Shown here: positions 29,918 through 41,252 of the stretch, one piece after another
Position numbering within the stretch: position 1 is the first letter of the stretch
Layout of the letters: every line of letters starts with the position of its first letter
Virus record (IMG/VR): IMGVR_UViG_3300050821_003302
Location: 1 to 49,278 of that record
Reading direction: 5' to 3' (one strand)
Length of the DNA stretch: 49,278 bases
Origin: a virus
Program-made: the position numbers and the translations under genes
The notes under the pieces: generated by a model
What the model saw: the letters and a program-made list of their open reading frames with translations, nothing else
Database searches by the model: none
Told to the model about the DNA's origin: nothing

Positions 29918-29924
29918 TCTAACT

Positions 29925-30293
29925 ATGAAGCAGATGGGCTACTTCTTTCTTGACCACAGTAATTCTCCCGGACTTCCAGAAGATATAGCTCGCAAGGCAG
30001 GGTATGACCCGAAGCTTACGGGTGAAGGCAAGGTTTATGAGGCAGATTCTTTTACGTGTCCTCACTGCAAGTCTGCGGTGATTATGCATCTCGAAAGGGA
30101 AAGGCCCCGTGAGACTTGTGAAAAATGCACGTTTTCAAATGGCGTCAAGCGCTACATCTGCGATGGATGCGCGTGGATAGCCCGTCAGCCCGGTTACATC
30201 CATACGACCTTGGAACAGGCATATGAATACGGGCTTGATCCAACAATTATTTATGTACCCCGCTGGGGTGCTTCTAAAGAAGGATTCAAATAA
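29925..30293 (+). CDS. Zinc-finger protein, 122 residues
   Basis: ATG 29925 is chosen as start (MKQMGYFFLDHSNSPGLPEDIARKAGYD...). FTCPHCKSAV, ETCEKCTFSNGVKRYICDGCAWI give three CxxC pairs, suggesting one or two zinc fingers. It lies between structural genes. I know such Cys proteins from phage tail regions, without function. Confidence 0.68.
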   Translation: MKQMGYFFLDHSNSPGLPEDIARKAGYDPKLTGEGKVYEADSFTCPHCKSAVIMHLERERPRETCEKCTFSNGVKRYICDGCAWIARQPGYIHTTLEQAYEYGLDPTIIYVPRWGASKEGFK

Positions 30294-30805
30294 TGTCTAA
30301 ATGGTCTTTTAACGTTATGACGATGGCTCCGGCCGCCTCGGCAGACAACGCCTTGCTTACCGGTGGTTGGATGGCTCTGGGCGGCGGCACGGCTACTCAA
30401 TACATCAAGGTTCAGGAAATCCAGGAGACGGGCCAGGCTGTCGCCACCAGCGCAAACATCATGCAGTTTGCTCGGGATTCGACCGCCGGTGCTACACCGA
30501 CCGCATTGGCCGCCAACTCCGGTAACTCGATGGGCCCGCTAGATGCCAGCACGGCCGTTCTTGCGAACCCTAACACGGCGTTCATTGCGGCGACCACTGC
30601 ACCGACTCGTTCCGGTTCGGTCACGTCAGCCAAACTCAATCTGTCGTTCAATGCTTTCGGCGGAATTCTCCGTTGGCAGGCGGCGCCGGATGAGGAATGG
30701 GGCATTATCACTGCAACCGGTCCGGCCGGCGAAAGCTCGCTCTCAGGCTTCACCGGCACGGGTACCGGTCCGATGGGTGCTCATATCATCTTTGAAGTGA
30801 AGTAA
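30293..30805 (+). CDS. Beta-rich virion protein, 170 residues
   Basis: It starts by overlap (TAATG). The product (MSKWSFNVMTMAPAASADNALLTGGWMALGGGTATQYIKVQEIQETGQAVATSANIMQFARDST...LRWQAAPDEEWGIITATG) looks like a small capsid or head-decoration protein. No named family. Confidence 0.65.
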   Translation: MSKWSFNVMTMAPAASADNALLTGGWMALGGGTATQYIKVQEIQETGQAVATSANIMQFARDSTAGATPTALAANSGNSMGPLDASTAVLANPNTAFIAATTAPTRSGSVTSAKLNLSFNAFGGILRWQAAPDEEWGIITATGPAGESSLSGFTGTGTGPMGAHIIFEVK

Positions 30806-31086
30806 TGCCCATAACCTGTAGTGGTCCCCGGCCATACGCCGGGGACCTATTCATACCGGACGCGATCTATGCCGCAATATATCGCGCTCGGGAAGAACAT
30901 CTTAGTAGAATCATGATCAGGCGCGCTGGAGATGGTACCTATGATCTACTTATCCAGTCTGATGATGAAATTGACCCCATTGAGGACGCGAGGCGTAGGC
31001 CGGTGCTTTATTGCACGATAACAATCGATCCGGTGGATCACCGCGCGTACGTGGTTTATGTAGACGGCCGCACTGAAACAAGGTGA
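30805..31086 (+). CDS. Small protein, 93 residues
   Basis: It starts by one-base overlap with the preceding stop (TAATG). The product contains SRIMIRRAGDGTYDLLIQSDDEIDP and a strand pair LYCTITIDPVDHRAYVVYVDG. No family recognised. Confidence 0.6.
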   Translation: MPITCSGPRPYAGDLFIPDAIYAAIYRAREEHLSRIMIRRAGDGTYDLLIQSDDEIDPIEDARRRPVLYCTITIDPVDHRAYVVYVDGRTETR

Positions 31087-31089
31087 AAA

Positions 31090-31350
31090 ATGGTAACTCA
31101 AACTCAAGTCGCTAACGCCGACCCCGTCTACCAGAACATACTGAAGGTCAACGCTACTATTGTTGCGATCAATGCGGCGGTGCCGGTCGGATACACCGGG
31201 CCCATCACCCTCTACATCGGCGGCGGACCCGGCGGGAACAGTGTTCAGATTGACCTGTCTGCCATCGGTGTCAGCACTGTCCTCAATTCCATGTTCACGC
31301 AGGCGAACTCCACCCTCACCACACTGAATTCCCAACTCGCTGCGATCTAA
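31090..31350 (+). CDS. Small virion-region protein, 86 residues
   Basis: The product (MVTQTQVANADPVYQNILKVNATIVAINAAVPVGYTGPITLYIGGGPGGNSVQIDLSAIGVSTVLNSMF...) combines helices with a beta turn. No family recognised. Confidence 0.6.
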   Translation: MVTQTQVANADPVYQNILKVNATIVAINAAVPVGYTGPITLYIGGGPGGNSVQIDLSAIGVSTVLNSMFTQANSTLTTLNSQLAAI

Positions 31351-31644
31351 ATGGCCGCCCAGGGCTCGATCAACCTCAACTTCGGGGCGTTTCCGGGGGC
31401 CCTCCAGGCTCAGGCCGTGGTTGGTAGCCAGACCGGAATTCTCTCTACTTCATTGGTTGAAGCGTGGCTTTATCCTGTGGCCACTGCCGATCACAGCGTT
31501 GACGAGCAAATCTTTGACAGTACGTCATTGATTGTTACGGCGGCAAACATCGTCCCGGGTACCGGCTTTACGATCTATGGTCAGGTCGATCTTGGGAACG
31601 CTCCGCTTTACGGTAACTATAACATCGCCTGGGTGTGGAATTGA
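31351..31644 (+). CDS. Small beta-rich protein, 97 residues
   Basis: The product (AAQGSINLNFGAFPGALQAQAVVGSQTGILSTSLVEAWLYPVATADHSVDEQ...IVPGTGFTIYGQVDLGNAPLYGNYNIAWVWN) looks like a complete beta sandwich. I recognise the LxFGAFPGxxxAxxxVxGQxxI...VEAWLxPxxTxDHSxDEH pattern from rhizobial phage structural regions. It abuts its neighbours exactly. Confidence 0.68.
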   Translation: MAAQGSINLNFGAFPGALQAQAVVGSQTGILSTSLVEAWLYPVATADHSVDEQIFDSTSLIVTAANIVPGTGFTIYGQVDLGNAPLYGNYNIAWVWN

Positions 31645-32510
31645 CAGTCCAGATTGCCGGGAATGTAAACAGCACGGTTGCCGAAGTAGAGCTAAACACT
31701 CTTGCTGGTCGCCGCGCTGTTCGTCCTAATGACGTTCTTGGATCAAATCCGGTAATACAGCCTGTCGGCGGGTCGTTCAGCACAACGGCCATCGCGACGA
31801 TCACGGGCAACGGCACAACGTTTACTGCGCCAACAAACGCTCCGATCCTCGCAATGCAATGGGTTGACCCTAACAATCTGTTTGTTTTGAAAAAGCTAAG
31901 TATTAAGCAGGCTGCGCCGCCTACGACTACGTCCTATGCTACTGCCGGGGTTTGGACATTCCAGGTATTCCGGGCGCAGGCGTTTGTCCGTCAATACGAC
32001 ACTTACGGCGTTGACAATGTGACCAATGTTTGGTTGCAGGCTGCCCAAACCATGCCAGTCGGGGTGGGCGGAAAACGCAAATCAACGATGCTGAATGCTA
32101 GGGCTGGTGGGTATCAGCCCGGCGATATTGCCAATGTAACGCTCCCTACGGGGGGCGGCGGTACCCCGCTCAGTATTAATTCCAGTACAGTATCGGGCGG
32201 CTCAGTCGTTTTCCTGTTCACGCGCACGCTTCAAGCAAACGTGACCGCATTCCCGCCTCTTGGTGGTGGGCAAAATACCCTTGATCCATTTCCATTTGCT
32301 GCGATCACGACCAGCGTGCCGACAGCGACCCTGCCATACAACAACATTGGGTTGAATTCCCCAATATACGACTCAACCGACACATATCCGATGATCTTTG
32401 ATTGCATGACCGGGTTTGTTGTGCAGACGACATTTAACGGCAGCTTTGGTGTTGCCGCCACGATCTCATTCATCTTTTCAATGGACTGGGAAGAGCTCCC
32501 AAATTTCTGA
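31641..32510 (+). CDS. Virion protein, paralogue A
   Basis: I chose TTG 31641 (overlapping the previous stop) because it aligns with the start of the next gene: LTVQIAGNVNSTVAEVELNTLAGRRAVRPND against MATQIVGNVNSGTAAEVEVGTKALRSVIRPDD. Both end in a VQxxWEEL-like block (SMDWEELPNF here). The 289 residues are beta-rich. Probably a capsid- or tail-surface protein. Confidence 0.68.
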   Translation: MTVQIAGNVNSTVAEVELNTLAGRRAVRPNDVLGSNPVIQPVGGSFSTTAIATITGNGTTFTAPTNAPILAMQWVDPNNLFVLKKLSIKQAAPPTTTSYATAGVWTFQVFRAQAFVRQYDTYGVDNVTNVWLQAAQTMPVGVGGKRKSTMLNARAGGYQPGDIANVTLPTGGGGTPLSINSSTVSGGSVVFLFTRTLQANVTAFPPLGGGQNTLDPFPFAAITTSVPTATLPYNNIGLNSPIYDSTDTYPMIFDCMTGFVVQTTFNGSFGVAATISFIFSMDWEELPNF

Positions 32511-32516
32511 GGTACT

Positions 32517-33185
32517 ATGGCCACCCAAATAGTTGGTAACGTCAACTCTGGTACAGCAGCAGAAGTAGAAGTTGGCACCAAAGCGCTGCGTTCGGTCATC
32601 AGGCCGGACGACATTGGCTCGCTAGGCGCGTACCTGATTGACCTTACAAGCGGCACCATGGCGGCAGCTCTTGCTGCCAACTCTCCGGTATTCTCTTGGC
32701 GCAACGGCAACGCCTCTAACGTCATTGTAATCCGTCAGGTGCAGATCTCTGCCGGAGACTTGGTCGGGTTTACGGCTGGTATAGCCACTTTCACGATGTT
32801 CCGGGCTACGTCGTTCTCCGCGTCTGACACGGGTGGAACAACGTCTCTTCCTGGAACTGGCAGCAAGAAAAAGACCTCGATGGCGTCGTCCTTGATGACG
32901 GCCGGTAACAACTCTGACATTCGCATTAGTGCTACAGCCACGCTTACGGCTGGAACTAGAACGCTGGATGCTCTTGCAATGGGCACCGTCGCGACAAGCG
33001 TCATTGCTACGGCGGGGAATCCGATTACCCCCGGCAAGGTCACGCTGTTCGATGGGCGGGGCTCCGCGTGGCCGTTGGTGCTGGTGCAGAACGAGGGGTT
33101 TGTCATTCAGGCCACGGTCCCCATTACAGGCACCTGGACCTTCGACGTTCAGGTTGATTGGGAAGAACTCACCGCTTATCCATAG
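32517..33185 (+). CDS. Virion protein, paralogue B
   Basis: The 222 residues are a shorter relative of the preceding protein, sharing the Q-I-x-G-N-V-N-S start, the FTMFRATSF/FQVFRAQAF strand and the VDWEEL end. The pair arose by tandem duplication and has diverged strongly. Function unknown. Confidence 0.68.
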   Translation: MATQIVGNVNSGTAAEVEVGTKALRSVIRPDDIGSLGAYLIDLTSGTMAAALAANSPVFSWRNGNASNVIVIRQVQISAGDLVGFTAGIATFTMFRATSFSASDTGGTTSLPGTGSKKKTSMASSLMTAGNNSDIRISATATLTAGTRTLDALAMGTVATSVIATAGNPITPGKVTLFDGRGSAWPLVLVQNEGFVIQATVPITGTWTFDVQVDWEELTAYP

Positions 33186-33193
33186 GGAACATA

Positions 33194-33460
33194 ATGGCCA
33201 CATTCAACGTCACTGGGACTGTTACAGACGCCGATGGGCTCTCTACGCCGTTCACTGGTAGCTTCACTACGGCCTCGCCTCCGGTTGTCAATTCCGTGAC
33301 GGTTTCTCCGCAGTCGGCTCCCGCGGGGACGCTGAGGACTATCACGATCAGCGCAACCGACCCCAACACGCCCGGTGGCCCTCTGACCTATACCTGTTCG
33401 GTAAACGGAACCCCGGCAGCCGCTACAGCCCAAGCTAACGTATTCACCTTCACTGCATGA
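33194..33460 (+). CDS. Ig/PKD-like domain protein, N-terminal part
   Basis: From ATG 33194 the 88 residues (ATFNVTGTVTDADGLSTPFTGSFTTASPPVVNSVTVSPQSAPAGTLRTITISATDPNTPGGPLTYTCSVNG...FTFTA) look like most of an Ig/cadherin-like repeat, ending before the last strands. Those strands appear in the next gene, which overlaps by ATGA. So one domain is spread over two reading frames. Confidence 0.62.
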   Translation: MATFNVTGTVTDADGLSTPFTGSFTTASPPVVNSVTVSPQSAPAGTLRTITISATDPNTPGGPLTYTCSVNGTPAAATAQANVFTFTA

Positions 33461-34041
33461 CCGATCTTCCGGTCGCAGTAACAGTCACTGACTCGTCTGG
33501 GCTTTCGGCTTCGGCAAACGCCACAATCACTATCGCCAGCGGCACGACGACCATAAACGTCGGGGAAACGACGGTTCTCTCCGAGACCGATAACGGCAAC
33601 GGCAACCTTCTGGTAGCCCAGCCGATCACTCTGACCCAGCAGGGCACGTTACAGAGCATATCGTTCTATGTGGCTACTGTAGGAGGGCAACTCCGGTTGG
33701 GGCTTTATTCTGGGGTAACCCCGAATGCGCTGGTGGCCCAAGGAACCGCTTTTACCCCGGTGGCCGGTTGGAATATGCAGTCGGTTACATCGCCCTCGCT
33801 ACCACCGGGCCAGTACTGGCTAGCCTACCTTCCGTCATCTAATACGCTTGGGTTTCGGAAGGCTGAGACCGGTGGTACGAGTTACTTCAAGACTGAGAGC
33901 TTTGGAGCAATGCCAAGCACCTTTCCGGCCTCACCGAATACCACGACTTCGCACTGGTCGTTCTACGCAACCTTCATAGTCATCCAAGACACCACTCCGC
34001 CCAGCATTCCAACAAACCTGACGGCAACCAATGTTTCGTAA
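33457..34041 (+). CDS. Ig-like adhesin-type protein ending in an FN3 start
   Basis: The 194 residues begin LPVAVTVTDSSGLSASANATITI, the missing end of the preceding Ig-like repeat, continue with a lectin-like beta region (LTQQGTLQSISFYVATVGGQLRLGLYSG...), and stop at DTTPPSIPTNLTATNVS, the first strand of a fibronectin type III domain. The rest of that FN3 domain is in the next gene. A surface-binding role is likely. Confidence 0.65.
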   Translation: MTDLPVAVTVTDSSGLSASANATITIASGTTTINVGETTVLSETDNGNGNLLVAQPITLTQQGTLQSISFYVATVGGQLRLGLYSGVTPNALVAQGTAFTPVAGWNMQSVTSPSLPPGQYWLAYLPSSNTLGFRKAETGGTSYFKTESFGAMPSTFPASPNTTTSHWSFYATFIVIQDTTPPSIPTNLTATNVS

Positions 34042-35881
34042 AGTTAAATGGCTTCTCGGGCTGTTTGTTTGCATCTTCCTTGTTTCCTCTGCTATTACGC
34101 AGAGTGTTAGTGTCAGCCTAGCTTGGAGCCCTAGCACCGATAACGTCGGGGTTGCGGGGTATCACGTTTATCGAAACGAGGTCCTGATCGGGACTTCGTC
34201 TACAACGTCGTTCACGGACACGACGGCAAGTCCTTCTACGCAATACAGTTACACAGTTAGAGCCTTTGACGCTGCGGGTAATGAGTCTGGGGACTCTCTG
34301 CCTGCGGTCATTCTGACTGGGACGATCATTACGATCGGGGGCGGGAACGACAATACCTTCACTCCCACGGCATTGCGTTTCATGTCCCCGTCCGGGAGTG
34401 ATGCAGCTAATGGACTGACTCCTGCCACGGCTTGGGCAACGCCCAATCATGCGATGAACTGCGGGGACGTTATCCTTGCGGCGTCCGGAACCTATACGAC
34501 GCAGTTTGCTGGTAGTTGGGGCACCGTATCTAACTGTCCGTCTACGACTGGCGGTATCGATGGGACAGGCGGTATATGGTTTGCGGCTATCGTCTGTGCC
34601 GGACCTGACTTGGTGTCCTGCCCGCTAAACAGCACGAGTACCGGCGGCTCCAATGGAGTCGTGGCGCCGACAACGAATAACTGGTCAGTTCAGGGATTCA
34701 AGGTAACAGTTGCCGGCGGTGCCGATCGTGGTTTCGCAATTAATCCTCCCAATCAAACCACAATCCTGCACCATTACGCCTTTATCAACAATGTCGTATT
34801 TAACACTAATCAGGCGTTCGGTGGGAACGATTGCCCGGGGGGTACCTGCAATCACAATGTTCCGGGCGACGGCTTTGACTATTGGGCCATCATTGGGAAC
34901 ATAGCGCAAAATTCAGCCCAGGATGGCATATGCCTGGGTGCTATTGATGCGGTGGGTGTGGCCAACCAGGACACGTTGCCTGGAACGCACATCTATGTAT
35001 TCAACAATTTTGCAATCAGTAATAACACAGCGGACAATGGTTGCGTAATTGATGAAGAAGGTTCCATGTTCGATACCTGGGACGCGCATGGGTATGCCAA
35101 CCAAGGAGTGATAGCCAACAATATAGTTTATAATTCTATTCGGTATGGCTTTCAAATGTTCTCCCAATCGTTCAACACGTCATCTCCGACGATCAAAGTT
35201 TACAACAATACATATTTTAATAATTTGCAGCAGACTGGTACGGACTCGGCAGACGGCGAACTTAATTGGAGCTTCAGCAGCAATGGCGGGTCGATTGCTG
35301 GATGGACATTCTCAGTTCTAAGAAACATTGCCTATAATACCCACGCTACGTCTCCTGGCGGAACGACGCATAATCCGGTTTATGCCGCTGTCATTGGCGG
35401 AACGACATGGAGCAACTTCACCTTCGGCAGCACTGGGAATGAGAACGTATTGCTAGGCTCTGCTACATCGTGTGCTGGGACCTGCGATAGCGGTGTCGCG
35501 CCATTCACCATTAGCAATTTCAACAGCAATGGGCTGGGTACGAATTTTATTACCAATCCTAATTTCGCAAATACGACGGACCTTTTTGCCAACCATCTCG
35601 GTGTACCGGATTGTACGGGGTTCGAGAATGTCTCGCAGTGCATGGGCTGGGATGCGAGGAACCATTCGCTTTTCCCGTTATCTGTCATTTCTGATCTTAC
35701 CGCCGGCTGTGCTCAATGTACTGGTAAGGGGTTTCAGCGTCCCGACATAGTGTGTGCTCCAAACCCCGATTATCCAGCGTGGTTGAAGGGCATGAACTAT
35801 CTGCACGCCCTTGATGGGTTTACTGCCGGTTCCCGCATTGTGGAAAAGATGGGTCTAACCACCAAACCTTGCGGGATGTAA
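34031..35881 (+). CDS. FN3 plus beta-helix protein with hydrophobic leader
   Basis: The 616 residues start with a basic-hydrophobic leader like a signal peptide (FRKVKWLLGLFVCIFLVSSAITQ), then an FN3 domain lacking its first strand (SVSLAWSPSTDNVGVAGYHVYRNEVLIGTSSTTSFTDTTASPSTQYSYTVRAFDAAGNES). From about residue 115 on it has FMSPSGSDAANGLTPATAWATPNHAM..., the opening of a right-handed beta helix, with several Cys. This is the form of polysaccharide-binding or -cleaving adhesins. No catalytic residues can be assigned. A signal peptide would be odd for a virion protein. Confidence 0.7.
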   Translation: MFRKVKWLLGLFVCIFLVSSAITQSVSVSLAWSPSTDNVGVAGYHVYRNEVLIGTSSTTSFTDTTASPSTQYSYTVRAFDAAGNESGDSLPAVILTGTIITIGGGNDNTFTPTALRFMSPSGSDAANGLTPATAWATPNHAMNCGDVILAASGTYTTQFAGSWGTVSNCPSTTGGIDGTGGIWFAAIVCAGPDLVSCPLNSTSTGGSNGVVAPTTNNWSVQGFKVTVAGGADRGFAINPPNQTTILHHYAFINNVVFNTNQAFGGNDCPGGTCNHNVPGDGFDYWAIIGNIAQNSAQDGICLGAIDAVGVANQDTLPGTHIYVFNNFAISNNTADNGCVIDEEGSMFDTWDAHGYANQGVIANNIVYNSIRYGFQMFSQSFNTSSPTIKVYNNTYFNNLQQTGTDSADGELNWSFSSNGGSIAGWTFSVLRNIAYNTHATSPGGTTHNPVYAAVIGGTTWSNFTFGSTGNENVLLGSATSCAGTCDSGVAPFTISNFNSNGLGTNFITNPNFANTTDLFANHLGVPDCTGFENVSQCMGWDARNHSLFPLSVISDLTAGCAQCTGKGFQRPDIVCAPNPDYPAWLKGMNYLHALDGFTAGSRIVEKMGLTTKPCGM

Positions 35882-36670
35882 ATGGCGGTAGCTCTAGACG
35901 TAGCCGGCGCTGGACAAAGCCAGCATGTGGTCAGTTCGCCAGTTACGTTTGTCTCGCCTCTGACAACCAGCGGGTCACTGGCAAACGGGGCCATCGTTGT
36001 AGGAATAGTATTCGGGGTAAAGACGGTCCCCGCTCTTGTTACCAGTGTAACATGGGGCGGTACCCAGACAATGACCGCCATTCCCAGCTCGACTCAACTA
36101 TCGAGTGGGGCCAATGGTGCCACGGTCTTCTACGGTCTGGTCGGGGTCAATAAGTTTGGCGCGCAGAATATTGTCATTACGTTCACTGGAGGGTCAGCTA
36201 CCGATATAACGCTCGTTGCCTGCTCGTGGACTGGGGTTGACCAGACAACGAGTTTTGCTGGTTCTGCGACCGGAGCAACCAGCACGGCCCCTGCAATAAC
36301 GGTTACGAGTCTGACCGGCAATGCCGTAATGGCAATCTTTGCCGATCTAACGGTTGGGTTTACGTCAACTAATAATACAAACCTGTTTCTCGACAACTCT
36401 CAAACACAATTCAATGCTGCGGGATTGAGGGCGGCTGGGGCATCGAGTGTAAGCTGCACGACCAATACGATTACATCAGAGGCATGGATTGCATCTGGTG
36501 TTAATATCATTGCAGTTGGCGCCGGTGCTGCGCCATTCTTCCAGACAGATTGGCCGGTTCCCGGGCGGACGACCTACGATCCTCGGGTTCAGCAGCAGCT
36601 AAACATAGTCAATCAGCAGACCAACCAGCAAACGACGCAGGGCCCAGTAACCGGCTCGCAATGCATGTAG
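35882..36670 (+). CDS. Beta-rich virion protein with DWP tail
   Basis: The 262 residues are beta-rich (VVSSPVTFVSPLTTSGSLANGAIVVGIVF...ITVTSLTGNAVMAIFADLTVG). The C-terminus has PFFQTDWPVPGRTTYDPRVQQQ, the same DWP motif repeated in the 38779 gene. It ends in a Gln-rich tail. Probably part of the same surface structure. Confidence 0.66.
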   Translation: MAVALDVAGAGQSQHVVSSPVTFVSPLTTSGSLANGAIVVGIVFGVKTVPALVTSVTWGGTQTMTAIPSSTQLSSGANGATVFYGLVGVNKFGAQNIVITFTGGSATDITLVACSWTGVDQTTSFAGSATGATSTAPAITVTSLTGNAVMAIFADLTVGFTSTNNTNLFLDNSQTQFNAAGLRAAGASSVSCTTNTITSEAWIASGVNIIAVGAGAAPFFQTDWPVPGRTTYDPRVQQQLNIVNQQTNQQTTQGPVTGSQCM

Positions 36671-38011
36671 ATGTATAATAGAAGCCGGATTCTAGTCGTT
36701 CCGAACAATCAGTTTCCGGGACAACCTGGTAATCCGGTTGGGTATGCGGCCTGGCCTGGGAATACTCTGTCGGGCAATTCCACCGTAACTCCTTGGCCAC
36801 CCACCATCGGTAATGGTGGGGTTACTTCTGGCCCAACTTGGGGTAGCGGAACCGCCAGCAATCCGACGATAGTAACCAATAAGTTGTTTGATACTGGTGT
36901 CCAGGGGAGCAGCTTTGCCAACTTCCTGGTATCGCTGAATGGAACGTCCAATGCCTCGCCAGCAAACTGGGTTGTGTTCCAGGGATGCTGGTTTCAGGGA
37001 AATGTTCTAACAGGATTTAATAATCTTTCGGCCCTGATAGACTGCGCATCTGCCGGGTCCACCAATATCATTTTTTCGTATTGTAGTTTCACCCCACGCG
37101 CGACCTTTAGTGCTGGTCCAGCCAATACGGCATGGGTTACACAAGCGTGGCCTTCTCCGCCGGCCGCGTCGTGGCCCTCATCTAGTGCCGCTAGTGGTCT
37201 AGATGATAATACGCTCGGCCTTGGCTGGATGCTCCCCAGGAACGATAGCTACCAATATGCTATGTTTGTGGGGTCGGCATCCGGGGGATTTATAACTTTA
37301 GATCATTGCGACGCATGGGGTGCCGCTGATCTCATACAGCCGGCCATGAGCAGCACCGCGCAGATCAATATAGTAGACTGTTGGCTGCACGATGGCAGGT
37401 TTGGATTTGGGCCGGTTTGGGATGTAACGCTTACATATCCCCCCGGGTTTTTCGTTTCAAGTTCCTCGCCTCCCACGATCTCTAACCAGTTTTCTGCCAA
37501 TACGACCGTTACTCCCGGCCAAGCCAATCCGGCAAGTAATGCAAATTGGTCGGCTGGCACCAACGATCACCAAGACGGCATTCTCCCCAACAACGGGGCG
37601 AGCAATCTATCAAATATGATGATCAGGCATAATACGATTGCCAGTCTTGGAAACACGAATGCCATAGCATTTCAGCACAACACTGGCGGCCTCTATCAGA
37701 AAATTTCTATCGTCAATAACTATCTAAGCGGCTACAATCACCCAATTGATTTTAATTCCTCTGGAAGCACGCCGATTACCGCGCAGGATAGCAATTTGGT
37801 CTTTACAGACAATGTCGTCGGCACAGATTTGCTGTTTGGCTCTGTCCTGCAAAGAGACCTGTCGCCACAGTTCAATAACATTGCGGGTTGCATCTGGCGC
37901 CGCAACAAATTGAAGGTTTATCCAGGCGACACCTGGTCTGGTCTCAATGCGAACGATGGGAAATTCATCTGGCCGGATACTACATTCAACAACACGGACT
38001 GGCCTAACTAA
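36671..38011 (+). CDS. Beta-helix-like protein with DWP end
   Basis: The 446 residues carry Asn/Gly-rich strands like a beta helix (FANFLVSLNGTSNASPANWVVFQGCWFQGNVLTG...NIIFSYCSF, IDCASAG, IVDCWLHDG, MMIRHNTIASLGNTNAIAFQHN) and end FNNTDWPN. Such proteins may bind or degrade surface glycans. There is no recognisable active site. Confidence 0.68.
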   Translation: MYNRSRILVVPNNQFPGQPGNPVGYAAWPGNTLSGNSTVTPWPPTIGNGGVTSGPTWGSGTASNPTIVTNKLFDTGVQGSSFANFLVSLNGTSNASPANWVVFQGCWFQGNVLTGFNNLSALIDCASAGSTNIIFSYCSFTPRATFSAGPANTAWVTQAWPSPPAASWPSSSAASGLDDNTLGLGWMLPRNDSYQYAMFVGSASGGFITLDHCDAWGAADLIQPAMSSTAQINIVDCWLHDGRFGFGPVWDVTLTYPPGFFVSSSSPPTISNQFSANTTVTPGQANPASNANWSAGTNDHQDGILPNNGASNLSNMMIRHNTIASLGNTNAIAFQHNTGGLYQKISIVNNYLSGYNHPIDFNSSGSTPITAQDSNLVFTDNVVGTDLLFGSVLQRDLSPQFNNIAGCIWRRNKLKVYPGDTWSGLNANDGKFIWPDTTFNNTDWPN

Positions 38012-38772
38012 TGGCTCGCAGTTTTAATGGCACCGATCAGTCATTCTATGCAGACCGTGGAACTGGTGCTCCGACCGGGTTGGCGACCGGCACCAGTTTC
38101 TCGATGGCGTGCTGGGTGAATTTTGCTGCCTTTCCTGGATCCGGGTCGCTGACATTTCTTGGCAAGGGCTTCGACGGCACAGACACAAACTATTTCTTTC
38201 AGGTTGACTCAACTCCGACGGTTCAGGTCGGGGCATTCAACGGGACCACGCAGGGGGTTAATGGATCGTATACAGCCGGCACTGGCGTCTGGACTCACAT
38301 CTACGGCGACTGGAATGGCTCCGTGTGGAGCATTTGGTTCAACGGGAATTCGCAAGCCTCTGGTAGCACCACGGGGCCATCAGTAATCGTTAATCCGCGC
38401 TACTTTGTCATGGCCGCTGCGGATGCCACAGGCACGGCCGGATCATTTACTCAGTGGACCAACTGCTCGTTAGCCGACTGTGCCGTGTGGAGTGGCCCGC
38501 TGAACTCGACGGACATTGGAAACATATCCGGAAAGACGCTTGGTGGTGGTCCCAACTCTGCTGGTCGCGCCAGCACTGCAACCAACACTGGCCGCACACT
38601 GCTGGGGTATTGGCCGCTTAACGGCTCAACCAACACCGAGACTGATCATTCGGCTAACGGCATAAACGCAACCGGCAGTGGGGCCACATCCCCAGGGGTT
38701 GTAGCCGACCCCATTCAACTCCAGCCGTTTGGATTTACGGCAGTAACCCTCATGGGCGCGATTTGTATGTGA
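38011..38772 (+). CDS. LamG/concanavalin-A-like protein
   Basis: The 253 residues start ARSFNGTDQSFYADRG and have FSMACWVNFAAFPGSGSLTFLGKGFDGT, GVWTHIYGDWNGSVWSIWFNG and LADCAVWSGPLNSTDI, the pattern of LamG-type lectin domains (FSMxxWVxF, W-x-H-I, A-V-W...L). Likely a glycan-binding module of the virion surface. It starts by one-base overlap. Confidence 0.75.
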   Translation: MARSFNGTDQSFYADRGTGAPTGLATGTSFSMACWVNFAAFPGSGSLTFLGKGFDGTDTNYFFQVDSTPTVQVGAFNGTTQGVNGSYTAGTGVWTHIYGDWNGSVWSIWFNGNSQASGSTTGPSVIVNPRYFVMAAADATGTAGSFTQWTNCSLADCAVWSGPLNSTDIGNISGKTLGGGPNSAGRASTATNTGRTLLGYWPLNGSTNTETDHSANGINATGSGATSPGVVADPIQLQPFGFTAVTLMGAICM

Positions 38773-38778
38773 TGATGG

Positions 38779-40740
38779 ATGGCCTTACTTCTCACCCAAA
38801 CTACCAGATTTGGGACGCAAACATATTCACGCACACAAACGCCCCGCTATCCGGCAACGCTCGGCTGGACGAATGCCAGCATACCGGCACCTCCAGCGCC
38901 GTTCGCGCAATACGATTGGCCGGTTCCTAAGGGCGCTAGGCCGGCTGGGTTTGACTGGATACGCAGTACACCGATCCAATTAATTGGATCGGATACTGTC
39001 TACGGAGCCCCTGGGCAGGTTCCGACCTATCCATTTCCGCCTCCGCAACTACCGCTCCGGGGCAGGGATTGGATTTGGTCAACACCGCTAAATCTTATCG
39101 GGCGGGACACGGTTTACGGGGCCCCCGGCCAAGTCCCAACTTATAATACGAATGCTCCCGTACGGCGCCCTGACGGCCCATTTGGCTTTATTGGCAGCCC
39201 TCCATCGGCAACGCCAGCGCCGTTTGCGCAGTATGACTGGCCCCTTGCTAAGACTACGCCGCCGAAGGCACGAGACTGGATTTGGTCAACCCAAATCCAA
39301 CTCATCGGGAAAGACACGGTTTACGGCGCGCCGGGGCAAGTACCGACTTATAATACCAATGCTCCAATACGAGCTGCTCTTGGTCCGTTTGGCTGGCTGA
39401 ATCCGGGGATTATCCCGTCTGGCACACCGTTTGCGCAATACGATTGGCCAGTTCCGAAGGTTACCCAATATAGCCCGCGCCCGTGGATTCTAAGCGGCCT
39501 ACAGGCGCCGGTAGTCGGGCCGGTTCCGTTTAACCAATACGACTGGCCACTTCCGCAAACAGCATCACTCTATCCGGTCCATAGGAATGGCTGGCTAGAC
39601 ACTATGATGGTGGTGTTCTCGCCGCCACCGACGAACTACGACTGGCCGCTACCGCAGAGGCCGGCGTATCCGACCGCGCTACAGACCTGGATACAAGCGG
39701 GGTCTACGGCTGCCGGCGTCATCAATCAGCCTGGGGCGATCTCGTTCTCGCCGCCCCAGCAGCCCAGACAGCCGGCCCGCAGGGGCTGGGAGTGGCCGAC
39801 CCCGATCAACCTGATCGGCAAGGACACGGTCTATGGGGCTCCGGGTCAGGTCCCGACTTACGATCTTCGGCCGCCCTTACGGGCGCCTATTTCTACCAAC
39901 CTGAATGGTTGGCTGAATTTCGGAATAGTGGTTGGTCCGGCTCCGTTCGCGCAATATGACTGGCCTGTACCACAGAGAACGAAGCAGCCGATCTTCTCAA
40001 TCGACTTTGATTCATTCCAGCCGGCGATAAATCCGTTTTTCCAGACGGATTGGCCCAATATGTTTGGGCCGGTATATCCAACCAGTTTACGAACCTGGAT
40101 ACAGCCCGGCTTTCAACCGCCCCCGACTCCGTTTTCCCAGACGGACTGGCCACAGGTACGCGCTACCGTTCGTCCGAGAGACTGGATTTGGTCAACGCCT
40201 ATCATCTTGATAGGTCAAGACACCGTTTACGGGGCACCTGGGCAGGTTCCTACATACGACCTGAGCCCGCCAAAACTGCGGCCTTATGCGGCCAATCTGA
40301 ATGGCTGGCTGAACCCAGGCATTACGGTAACGCCACCGCCGTTCTCGCAGACGAATTGGCCCACGCCACCGCGCGGGCCGACTCCCGGCAAAGATTGGAT
40401 TTGGAGCACCCCTCTAAATCTAATCGGCAAAGACACGATCGCCGGGGCCCCAGGTCAGGTTCTGACTTACCCGTTCCCGGTCCCGCAGAGGCCGCTGCCT
40501 AGAAGCGATTGGATATGGCCCACCCCCCTGGTCTTAATCGGCCAGGACAAGGTTTACGGGGCACCTGGGCAGGTTCCTACATACGACATTCAATTGGCCC
40601 CGCGCGGCAAGGTACTCCCGCCGCCCGGCTTCATAAGCTTCCCATATCCCGGGACTATCCCGGCGCCGTTCACGCAAAGCACTCAGCGTCCGCTTTTGAC
40701 GCTTCCGATTTATCCCGTGTTCTGGAAAGGACGATCTTAG
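38779..40740 (+). CDS. DWP / DTVYGAPGQVPTY repeat protein
   Basis: The 653 residues consist almost entirely of mixed short repeats rich in Pro, Trp, Tyr and Gln. Seven copies of LIGxDTVYGAPGQVPTY lie near residues 68, 105, 175, 345, 477, 548 and 586; about nine copies of PFxQ(Y/T)DWPxP are placed between them; and W-(I/L)xxG and DWIWSTPxxLIG link the units. There is no signal peptide or enzyme motif. I recognise DWP-repeat proteins from environmental alphaproteobacterial phages, with no assigned function. A fibrous or adhesive virion protein is likely. Confidence 0.75.
   Translation: MALLLTQTTRFGTQTYSRTQTPRYPATLGWTNASIPAPPAPFAQYDWPVPKGARPAGFDWIRSTPIQLIGSDTVYGAPGQVPTYPFPPPQLPLRGRDWIWSTPLNLIGRDTVYGAPGQVPTYNTNAPVRRPDGPFGFIGSPPSATPAPFAQYDWPLAKTTPPKARDWIWSTQIQLIGKDTVYGAPGQVPTYNTNAPIRAALGPFGWLNPGIIPSGTPFAQYDWPVPKVTQYSPRPWILSGLQAPVVGPVPFNQYDWPLPQTASLYPVHRNGWLDTMMVVFSPPPTNYDWPLPQRPAYPTALQTWIQAGSTAAGVINQPGAISFSPPQQPRQPARRGWEWPTPINLIGKDTVYGAPGQVPTYDLRPPLRAPISTNLNGWLNFGIVVGPAPFAQYDWPVPQRTKQPIFSIDFDSFQPAINPFFQTDWPNMFGPVYPTSLRTWIQPGFQPPPTPFSQTDWPQVRATVRPRDWIWSTPIILIGQDTVYGAPGQVPTYDLSPPKLRPYAANLNGWLNPGITVTPPPFSQTNWPTPPRGPTPGKDWIWSTPLNLIGKDTIAGAPGQVLTYPFPVPQRPLPRSDWIWPTPLVLIGQDKVYGAPGQVPTYDIQLAPRGKVLPPPGFISFPYPGTIPAPFTQSTQRPLLTLPIYPVFWKGRS
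40225..40260 (+). repeat. Exact 36-base direct repeat, copy 1
   Basis: GTTTACGGGGCACCTGGG... occurs here and at 40552-40587 without any change, 327 bases (109 codons) apart, within the repeat-protein gene. Other copies of the unit differ at silent positions, so this pair is recent. Confidence 0.85.
40552..40587 (+). repeat. Exact 36-base direct repeat, copy 2
   Basis: Second copy of the repeat at 40225-40260, in the seventh DTVYGAPGQVPTY unit (which has DKVYG). Recombination between the copies would remove or add 109 codons in frame. Confidence 0.85.
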
Positions 40741-41252
40741 TGGGAACCCGAAACCTAATTGGTGAAAGGTTTGGCCGCCTAACTGCCGTCATGTCCTATG
40801 GGGCGATGCCCTACGGCGGAAGGGCGTGGGCGTGTAACTGTGATTGCGGCAGATGGACGGTAACTGCCGCAAAAACTCTTCTAAACGGCCGAACAAAGTC
40901 ATGCGGCTGCCTTGCATCAGAGGTGCATTCGATAGCTGGCAAATTAACAATGACTAAGCATGGAATGTCTGGAACGCCAATGTTCCAGGGATGGCAAACA
41001 ATGATCATGCGCTGCCATAACCCCAACGTAAAATCCTATCCAAACTACGGCGGTCGCGGGATTTATGTTTGCGATCGCTGGCGCAAAAGCTTCGAGTTGT
41101 TTTTGTATGATGTCGGCAATCCTGGAGACGAAAGTCTTACGTTAGACCGCATAAATGTTAATGGCCCGTACGAGCCAGAAAACGTGCGTTGGGCGACAAG
41201 AAAAGAACAAGCACAAAACACACGAGCTAGGACGGCATACCGTGGGGACTGA
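40740..41252 (+). CDS. HNH/AP2-type homing-endonuclease-like protein
   Basis: It starts at GTG 40740, sharing a base with the previous TAG. The 170 residues have NLIGERFGRLTAV, CNCDCGRWTVTAAKTLLNGRTKSCGCL (a four-Cys zinc site), MRCHNPNVKSYPNYGGRGIYVCDRWRKSFELFLYDVG and LTLDRINVNGPYEPENVRWATRKEQAQNTR. This set is a known phage HNH/AP2 family of mobile endonucleases. It interrupts the structural cluster. Confidence 0.85.
   Translation: MGTRNLIGERFGRLTAVMSYGAMPYGGRAWACNCDCGRWTVTAAKTLLNGRTKSCGCLASEVHSIAGKLTMTKHGMSGTPMFQGWQTMIMRCHNPNVKSYPNYGGRGIYVCDRWRKSFELFLYDVGNPGDESLTLDRINVNGPYEPENVRWATRKEQAQNTRARTAYRGD

Follow-up and report, generated by a model that had tools for sequence, protein, structure and literature searches.

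Optional Ig-like, FN3 and adhesin modules occur on phage structural proteins, and the adenovirus-type triple β-spiral shaft is a trimeric structure of β-strands with a repeat of ~15–20 residues. Modular phage adhesins are the subject of PMC13370021, and carbohydrate-interacting phage proteins that of PMC9853417. No description of a DWP-repeat protein or of the gene cassette to which it belongs was found in the literature. At least 198 contigs of uncultured phages carry this undescribed cassette, which is presented here from a bacterial virus record of 49,278 bases (the whole stretch analysed, referred to as the window), in which portal, capsid, SU10-type adaptor and head-closure genes were recognizable. 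The recurrence of the DWP protein in unrelated uncultured phages, nearly always with the same two partner genes, suggests a plug-in component of the virus particle that has not been described before. The features of the window are listed in Table 1.

Table 1. Features of the repeat gene and of the variable block in the window
Feature	Position	Strand	Basis
DWP-repeat protein, 653 aa, ~17 units plus lead and stub	38779..40740	+	ORF, composition, motif count, parse
Long lead-in copy 1, LIGSDTVYGAPGQVPTY	38980..39030	+	Copy comparison
Long lead-in copy 2	39094..39144	+	Copy comparison
Long lead-in copy 3	39301..39351	+	Copy comparison
Long lead-in copy 4	39811..39861	+	Copy comparison
Long lead-in copy 5	40207..40257	+	Copy comparison
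Long lead-in copy 6, variant DTIAGAPGQVLTY	40420..40470	+	Copy comparison
Long lead-in copy 7, variant DKVYGAPGQVPTY	40534..40584	+	Copy comparison
Core PFAQYDWPVP	38899..38928	+	
Core PFAQYDWPLA	39220..39249	+	
Core PFAQYDWPVP	39427..39456	+	
Core PFNQYDWPLP	39526..39555	+	
Core PPTNYDWPLP	39625..39654	+	Motif list and unit parse
Core PFAQYDWPVP	39943..39972	+	
Core PFFQTDWPNM	40033..40062	+	
Core PFSQTDWPQV	40129..40158	+	
Core PFSQTNWPTP	40339..40368	+	
Cassette partner 1, zinc-ribbon protein (CxxC..CxxC..CxxC), 121 aa	29925..30290	+	Pfam zinc-ribbon matches weak, below cut-off
Cassette partner 2, p170, 170-aa all-β protein	30293..30805	+	Profile search, AlphaFold
616-aa protein, FN3 match weak and narrowly under the Pfam cut-off	34031..35881	+	
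262-aa β-sandwich-type protein (fold by inspection), one DWP unit PFFQTDWPVPGRTTYDP near C-terminus	35882..36670	+	
446-aa protein, end FNNTDWPN, β-helix-like by inspection only	36671..38011	+	
LamG/ConA-like lectin-fold protein (PF13385, E 8e-14), C-terminal tag TLMGAICM	38011..38772	+	
Variable block with cassette, between conserved genes 29477 and 41155	29918..41154	+	

The repeat gene starts with ATG, and its product is rich in Pro (18.4 %), Trp (4.7 %) and Tyr (4.3 %), with 0.2 % Glu and almost no His. Nine [DN]WP cores were counted against 0.43 expected, the maximum in 10,000 shuffles of the same protein being four, and LIGxD..GAPGQV.TY was present in seven copies, of which five were exactly DTVYGAPGQVPTY. 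The ORF call and motif counts thus recovered the place, the 653 aa, the seven 17-residue copies and the approximately nine DWP units given in the earlier note; the regular alternation of two unit types that it had described gave way, in an explicit chain parse, to one unit type in two lengths. Seventeen full units of 30–41 residues (mean 34.6) run head-to-tail over residues 46–634, between an N-terminal lead and a 19-residue C-terminal stub. Each begins with the DWP slot, continues with a Pro-rich spacer, usually including a WI/WL element, and closes with an end segment, which was the long lead-in LIGxDTVYGAPGQVPTY in seven units and mostly PFxQ(Y/T) in the remainder. As 23 of 26 long lead-ins in relatives stood directly before D[WYF]P, GAPGQVPTY is an alternative, longer entry to the same core; in the window protein the DWP had drifted after all seven lead-ins (PFP, NTN, DLR, DLS, DIQ).

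Pairwise comparison of the seven lead-in copies gave a pS of 0.78, a pN of 0.078 and a pN/pS of 0.10. With synonymous sites near saturation and pN low, the copies are old, and purifying selection maintains the peptide. Copies 5 and 7 share an identical stretch at the DNA level and have therefore probably undergone local exchange more recently. Close homologue pairs differed by whole-unit indels of 33, 34, 60, 71 and 74 residues, and whole units are thus gained and lost among relatives. No DNA-level tandem repeats were found, and tandem duplication at that level was rejected.

The repeat protein of the window had no significant match in Pfam, PHROG or PDB, in keeping with the absence of a known domain suggested previously, and 58 aligned family members gave only scattered single matches to profiles (phrog_8343, of unknown function, in five). 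By contrast with these null results, the window protein matched 54 loci by blastp (best E 9e-41), and searching IMG/VR with a DNA pattern for FxQTDWPxP retrieved 66 stretches, nearly all with multi-unit Pro-rich ORFs. At least 70 distinct homologues were identified in uncultured phages. The family was defined here as Pro-rich ORFs with at least three PFxQxDWPxP-type cores spaced by 27–42 residues; the window protein has nine cores and a mean unit of 34.6 residues. The 481 cores from 70 non-redundant proteins (3–27 cores each) gave the consensus PFxQxDWPxP, with P(−5) in 84 %, F(−4) in 61 %, Q(−2) in 77 %, D/N-W-P and P(+4) in 87 %. Core-to-core spacing had its mode at 31–34 residues (range 27–42), and the rest of the unit was weakly conserved. 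The earlier note had named absence from virions together with a lack of repeat conservation in relatives as what would refute its reading; the core was conserved in 70 distinct proteins, and the survey of DWP proteins in other phages that it proposed revealed a widespread uncultured-phage family with two near-constant partner genes.

Neither the window repeat protein nor the homologues used as queries had a match by tblastn in 50,697 phage records, and the cassette proteins were likewise without a match in these records. A tblastn match to MW202785 (E 0.8) was dismissed as chance, as it overlies a 72-aa ORF in another setting, and genome-collection matches in Marinobacter and in a gammaproteobacterial MAG were single chance matches. 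An Ignavibacteria MAG included cassette contigs, which are probably phage contigs in the bin. A five-protein alignment of the family was too diverse for a collection scan, and in a single-motif survey lone DWP units elsewhere than in the main repeat ORF were not common in other phages. Some repeat proteins carried additional elements: a C-terminal basic segment resembling GGxARAxxLTxxxRSxIAxxAAxxRW (L018, L020, L041, L047, L060 and L065), a second Trp-periodic array (DsQtxxWxxVxDsQ) after the repeat array, without a PHROG match when scanned singly (L033 and L049), or DWP cores mixed with LNLEAGSYxxTGADxT repeats (L217, L220, L223, L224 and L225).

Homologues of the zinc-ribbon protein and p170 were located upstream of the repeat gene, on the same strand and in the same order, in nearly all loci with enough flank, and the window has this arrangement, with the partners ~8 kb upstream compared with 0–5 kb in other loci. 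Profile searches detected the zinc-ribbon protein in 125 and p170 in 133 cassette loci and each in none of the 84 repeat-less relatives; the cassette loci were picked by repeat or p170, so that the zinc-ribbon count is the independent one. Where both partners were present, the zinc-ribbon gene was upstream of p170 on the same strand in 121 of 125 loci, 101 of them within 60 nt. Of the 16 repeat-carrying records tested, 15 contained p170, and the other was a 9-kb fragment. The converse search from p170 yielded 198 stretches, of which 80 were kept, and a repeat ORF was present in 40 of the 59 new loci with enough downstream DNA (a crude count). Most of the remaining 19 contained a divergent Pro-rich repeat ORF by inspection, which revealed no clear repeat ORF downstream in L198 and L206; L228 and L236 were cut by the fetched flank. 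p170 was detected in none of 398 Pseudomonadota genomes in a search run without a positive control.

The chassis families comprised the SU10 adaptor (PF24175), head closure Hc3 (phrog_578) and a P22-type stabilization protein (PF11134), and in the window the cassette precedes the adaptor and head-closure genes. Repeat-less relatives compared gene by gene were colinear with the window. The repeat gene was absent from all 84 loci fetched by capsid or head-closure protein, a zero count that rests mainly on the longer loci, many of the 84 being short fragments. The block between genes 29477 and 41155 measured 11.2 kb in the window, compared with 0 kb in L079, 1.8 kb in L081, 1.9 kb in L092, 2.2 kb in L095 and 4.2 kb in L087. 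At its edge, between the repeat gene and the conserved gene 41155, is an ORF at 40509–41252 (start likely nearer 40760) with scattered homologues in L129, L079, L146, L003, L142 and L088; its C-terminal part resembles relatives of HNH-type phage endonucleases by eye, with no Pfam match.

Five insertion places were identified within the capsid lineage of the window: on the MCP side of 41155 (window, L171 and L172), between portal and scaffold-side genes (L025), after head closure (L188), upstream of the portal (L183) and downstream of the adaptor genes (L066 and L221). The cassette therefore behaves as a movable unit, and it was also present in different capsid lineages. In L161, which has a different chassis, it was located between two tail-protein genes; among 10 flanking genes of L161, L165 and L203, five matched no family in the scan, which leaves a tail neighbourhood firmly shown for few loci only.

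Homologues of the 262-aa protein in other phages were fused to the repeat array. Fusions of arrays in relatives involved β-sandwich-type domains, N-terminal globular domains and, in some cases, Gly-rich and LamG domains, types that are common in fibres. The L060 homologue of the 446-aa protein lacked the FNNTDWPN ending. A C-terminal peptide, L[ML][AGPST][QA][IAS]xx (LMAQICL, LMGQIWM etc.), was common to cassette-locus proteins of different folds. It ended 28 of 1,810 distinct cassette-locus genes (0.38 expected from the internal rate) and none of 1,020 in repeat-less relatives (Fisher 4e-6 versus cassette loci), counts that are descriptive because the pattern was written after examples had been seen. 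The form L[ML]xQ[IA]xx was noted in the window gene at 38011–38772, in L161, L165, L045, L050, L017 and L200, and in other loci, and may be a docking or sorting tag.

The reading that we favour, plausible though still tentative, is that the repeat protein is a virion string, extended and multi-motif, by which the cassette adhesins are docked or tethered close to the short tail; we infer its place in the virion, the docking, the identity of the partner and the adhesion. The ~17 copies of one degenerate unit would form a non-globular, extended string, in which the PFxQxDWPxP core would act as a short docking motif on variable Pro-rich spacers, spaced by ~32 residues or by more where the LxGxDxxxGAPGQVPTY lead-in is present. 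The cassette would be self-contained, comprising the zinc-ribbon protein, p170, lectin- or adhesin-like proteins and the DWP string, and would pass between short-tailed phages, entering their genomes among the genes for head, neck and tail. A single virion protein, present in many copies, would serve as the docking site of the repeated cores; the likeliest candidate is the co-inherited p170 or another product of the cassette. The string would thereby tether or cross-link p170 and the adhesin-like proteins at the surface of the particle, beside the tail. p170 was modelled by AlphaFold as an all-β protein (pLDDT 91, pTM 0.88), on which NxFGGIxRW marks a conserved surface. Against PDB, virus jelly rolls were matched by 3Di, but with TM ≤0.34, too low to assign a fold; the best query TM in a viral structure library was 0.67, the matches being uncharacterized phage proteins, and no clear functional setting was found for the LIMEzero structural relative. 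p170 may also be co-inherited without touching the repeats. A wider version, which we regard as rather doubtful, is a plug-in virion system with a docking code of its own, in which the PFxQxDWPxP string and the C-terminal L[ML]xQ[IA]xx tag of neighbouring proteins would attach interchangeable adhesins to a constant p170/zinc-ribbon base, the kit moving between phage lineages.

The docking string is favoured over a glycan strip or a rigid shaft on the basis of the near-invariant ten-residue core, the variable spacers, the gain and loss of units, the near-constant partners and the lack of a predicted fold. A carbohydrate- or polymer-binding strip, close to the idea of the earlier note, would use Trp/Tyr-Pro loops to bind host capsule, EPS or environmental polymer weakly and gain avidity from their number. 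The repeats are indeed aromatic-rich, unit number varies freely among close homologues and the adjoining gene encodes a LamG lectin-like fold, but a core that is near-invariant across unrelated phages from many samples is easier to reconcile with an internal partner that stays constant than with host glycans that change, and this core travels with two constant genes; we consider such a strip unlikely.

Similarly improbable is a structured fibre shaft, either trimeric and β-spiral-like or another repeat solenoid, in which the DWP core would form a turn at each step. The regular period, the globular N-terminal fusions in relatives and the whole-unit indels would suit a shaft, whereas the core spacing of 27–42 residues and the poorly conserved spacers are loose for a fixed rise. 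When a seven-unit repeat segment was modelled by AlphaFold as a monomer from a shallow 46-row alignment (pLDDT 57.8, pTM 0.18), no strands or longer helices were predicted. A low score on a monomer is not proof of disorder, as an obligate trimeric fibre would be expected to look identical. The structural-gene setting agrees with the fibrous assembly or binding strip envisaged previously; the monomer model has no regular β or helical fibrous structure. That the cassette proteins are non-virion (e.g. assembly factors or host-takeover proteins) and their structural-gene setting merely convenient is very unlikely given the FN3- and LamG-type neighbours, the nearby SU10-type adaptor and head-closure genes and the array fusions to fibre-type domains, even though the zinc-ribbon partner, with weak zinc-ribbon matches only, has no obvious structural role.

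If the docking-string reading is correct, short-tailed phages would have in the cassette a portable means of displaying different binding proteins, which would help in interpreting host interaction from environmental viromes. In common with the Ig-like, FN3 and adhesin modules of phages, it is accessory, exchangeable, of surface type and placed among structural genes, the window block including FN3-like and LamG genes; it differs in that the DWP repeat is not a recognized globular domain and resembles a string of many motifs, accompanied by two partner genes that are nearly constant. Trimeric fibre-shaft repeats are likewise tandem repeats in a viral protein able to carry a globular domain, but the DWP period of 31–42 residues, the Pro-Trp core and the absence of predicted β-strands in the monomer model set it apart from the triple β-spiral. 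The chassis of the window belongs with the neck and tail modules of short-tailed phages, and its relatives are colinear with it, whereas the cassette is an extra block in the window that these relatives do not share.
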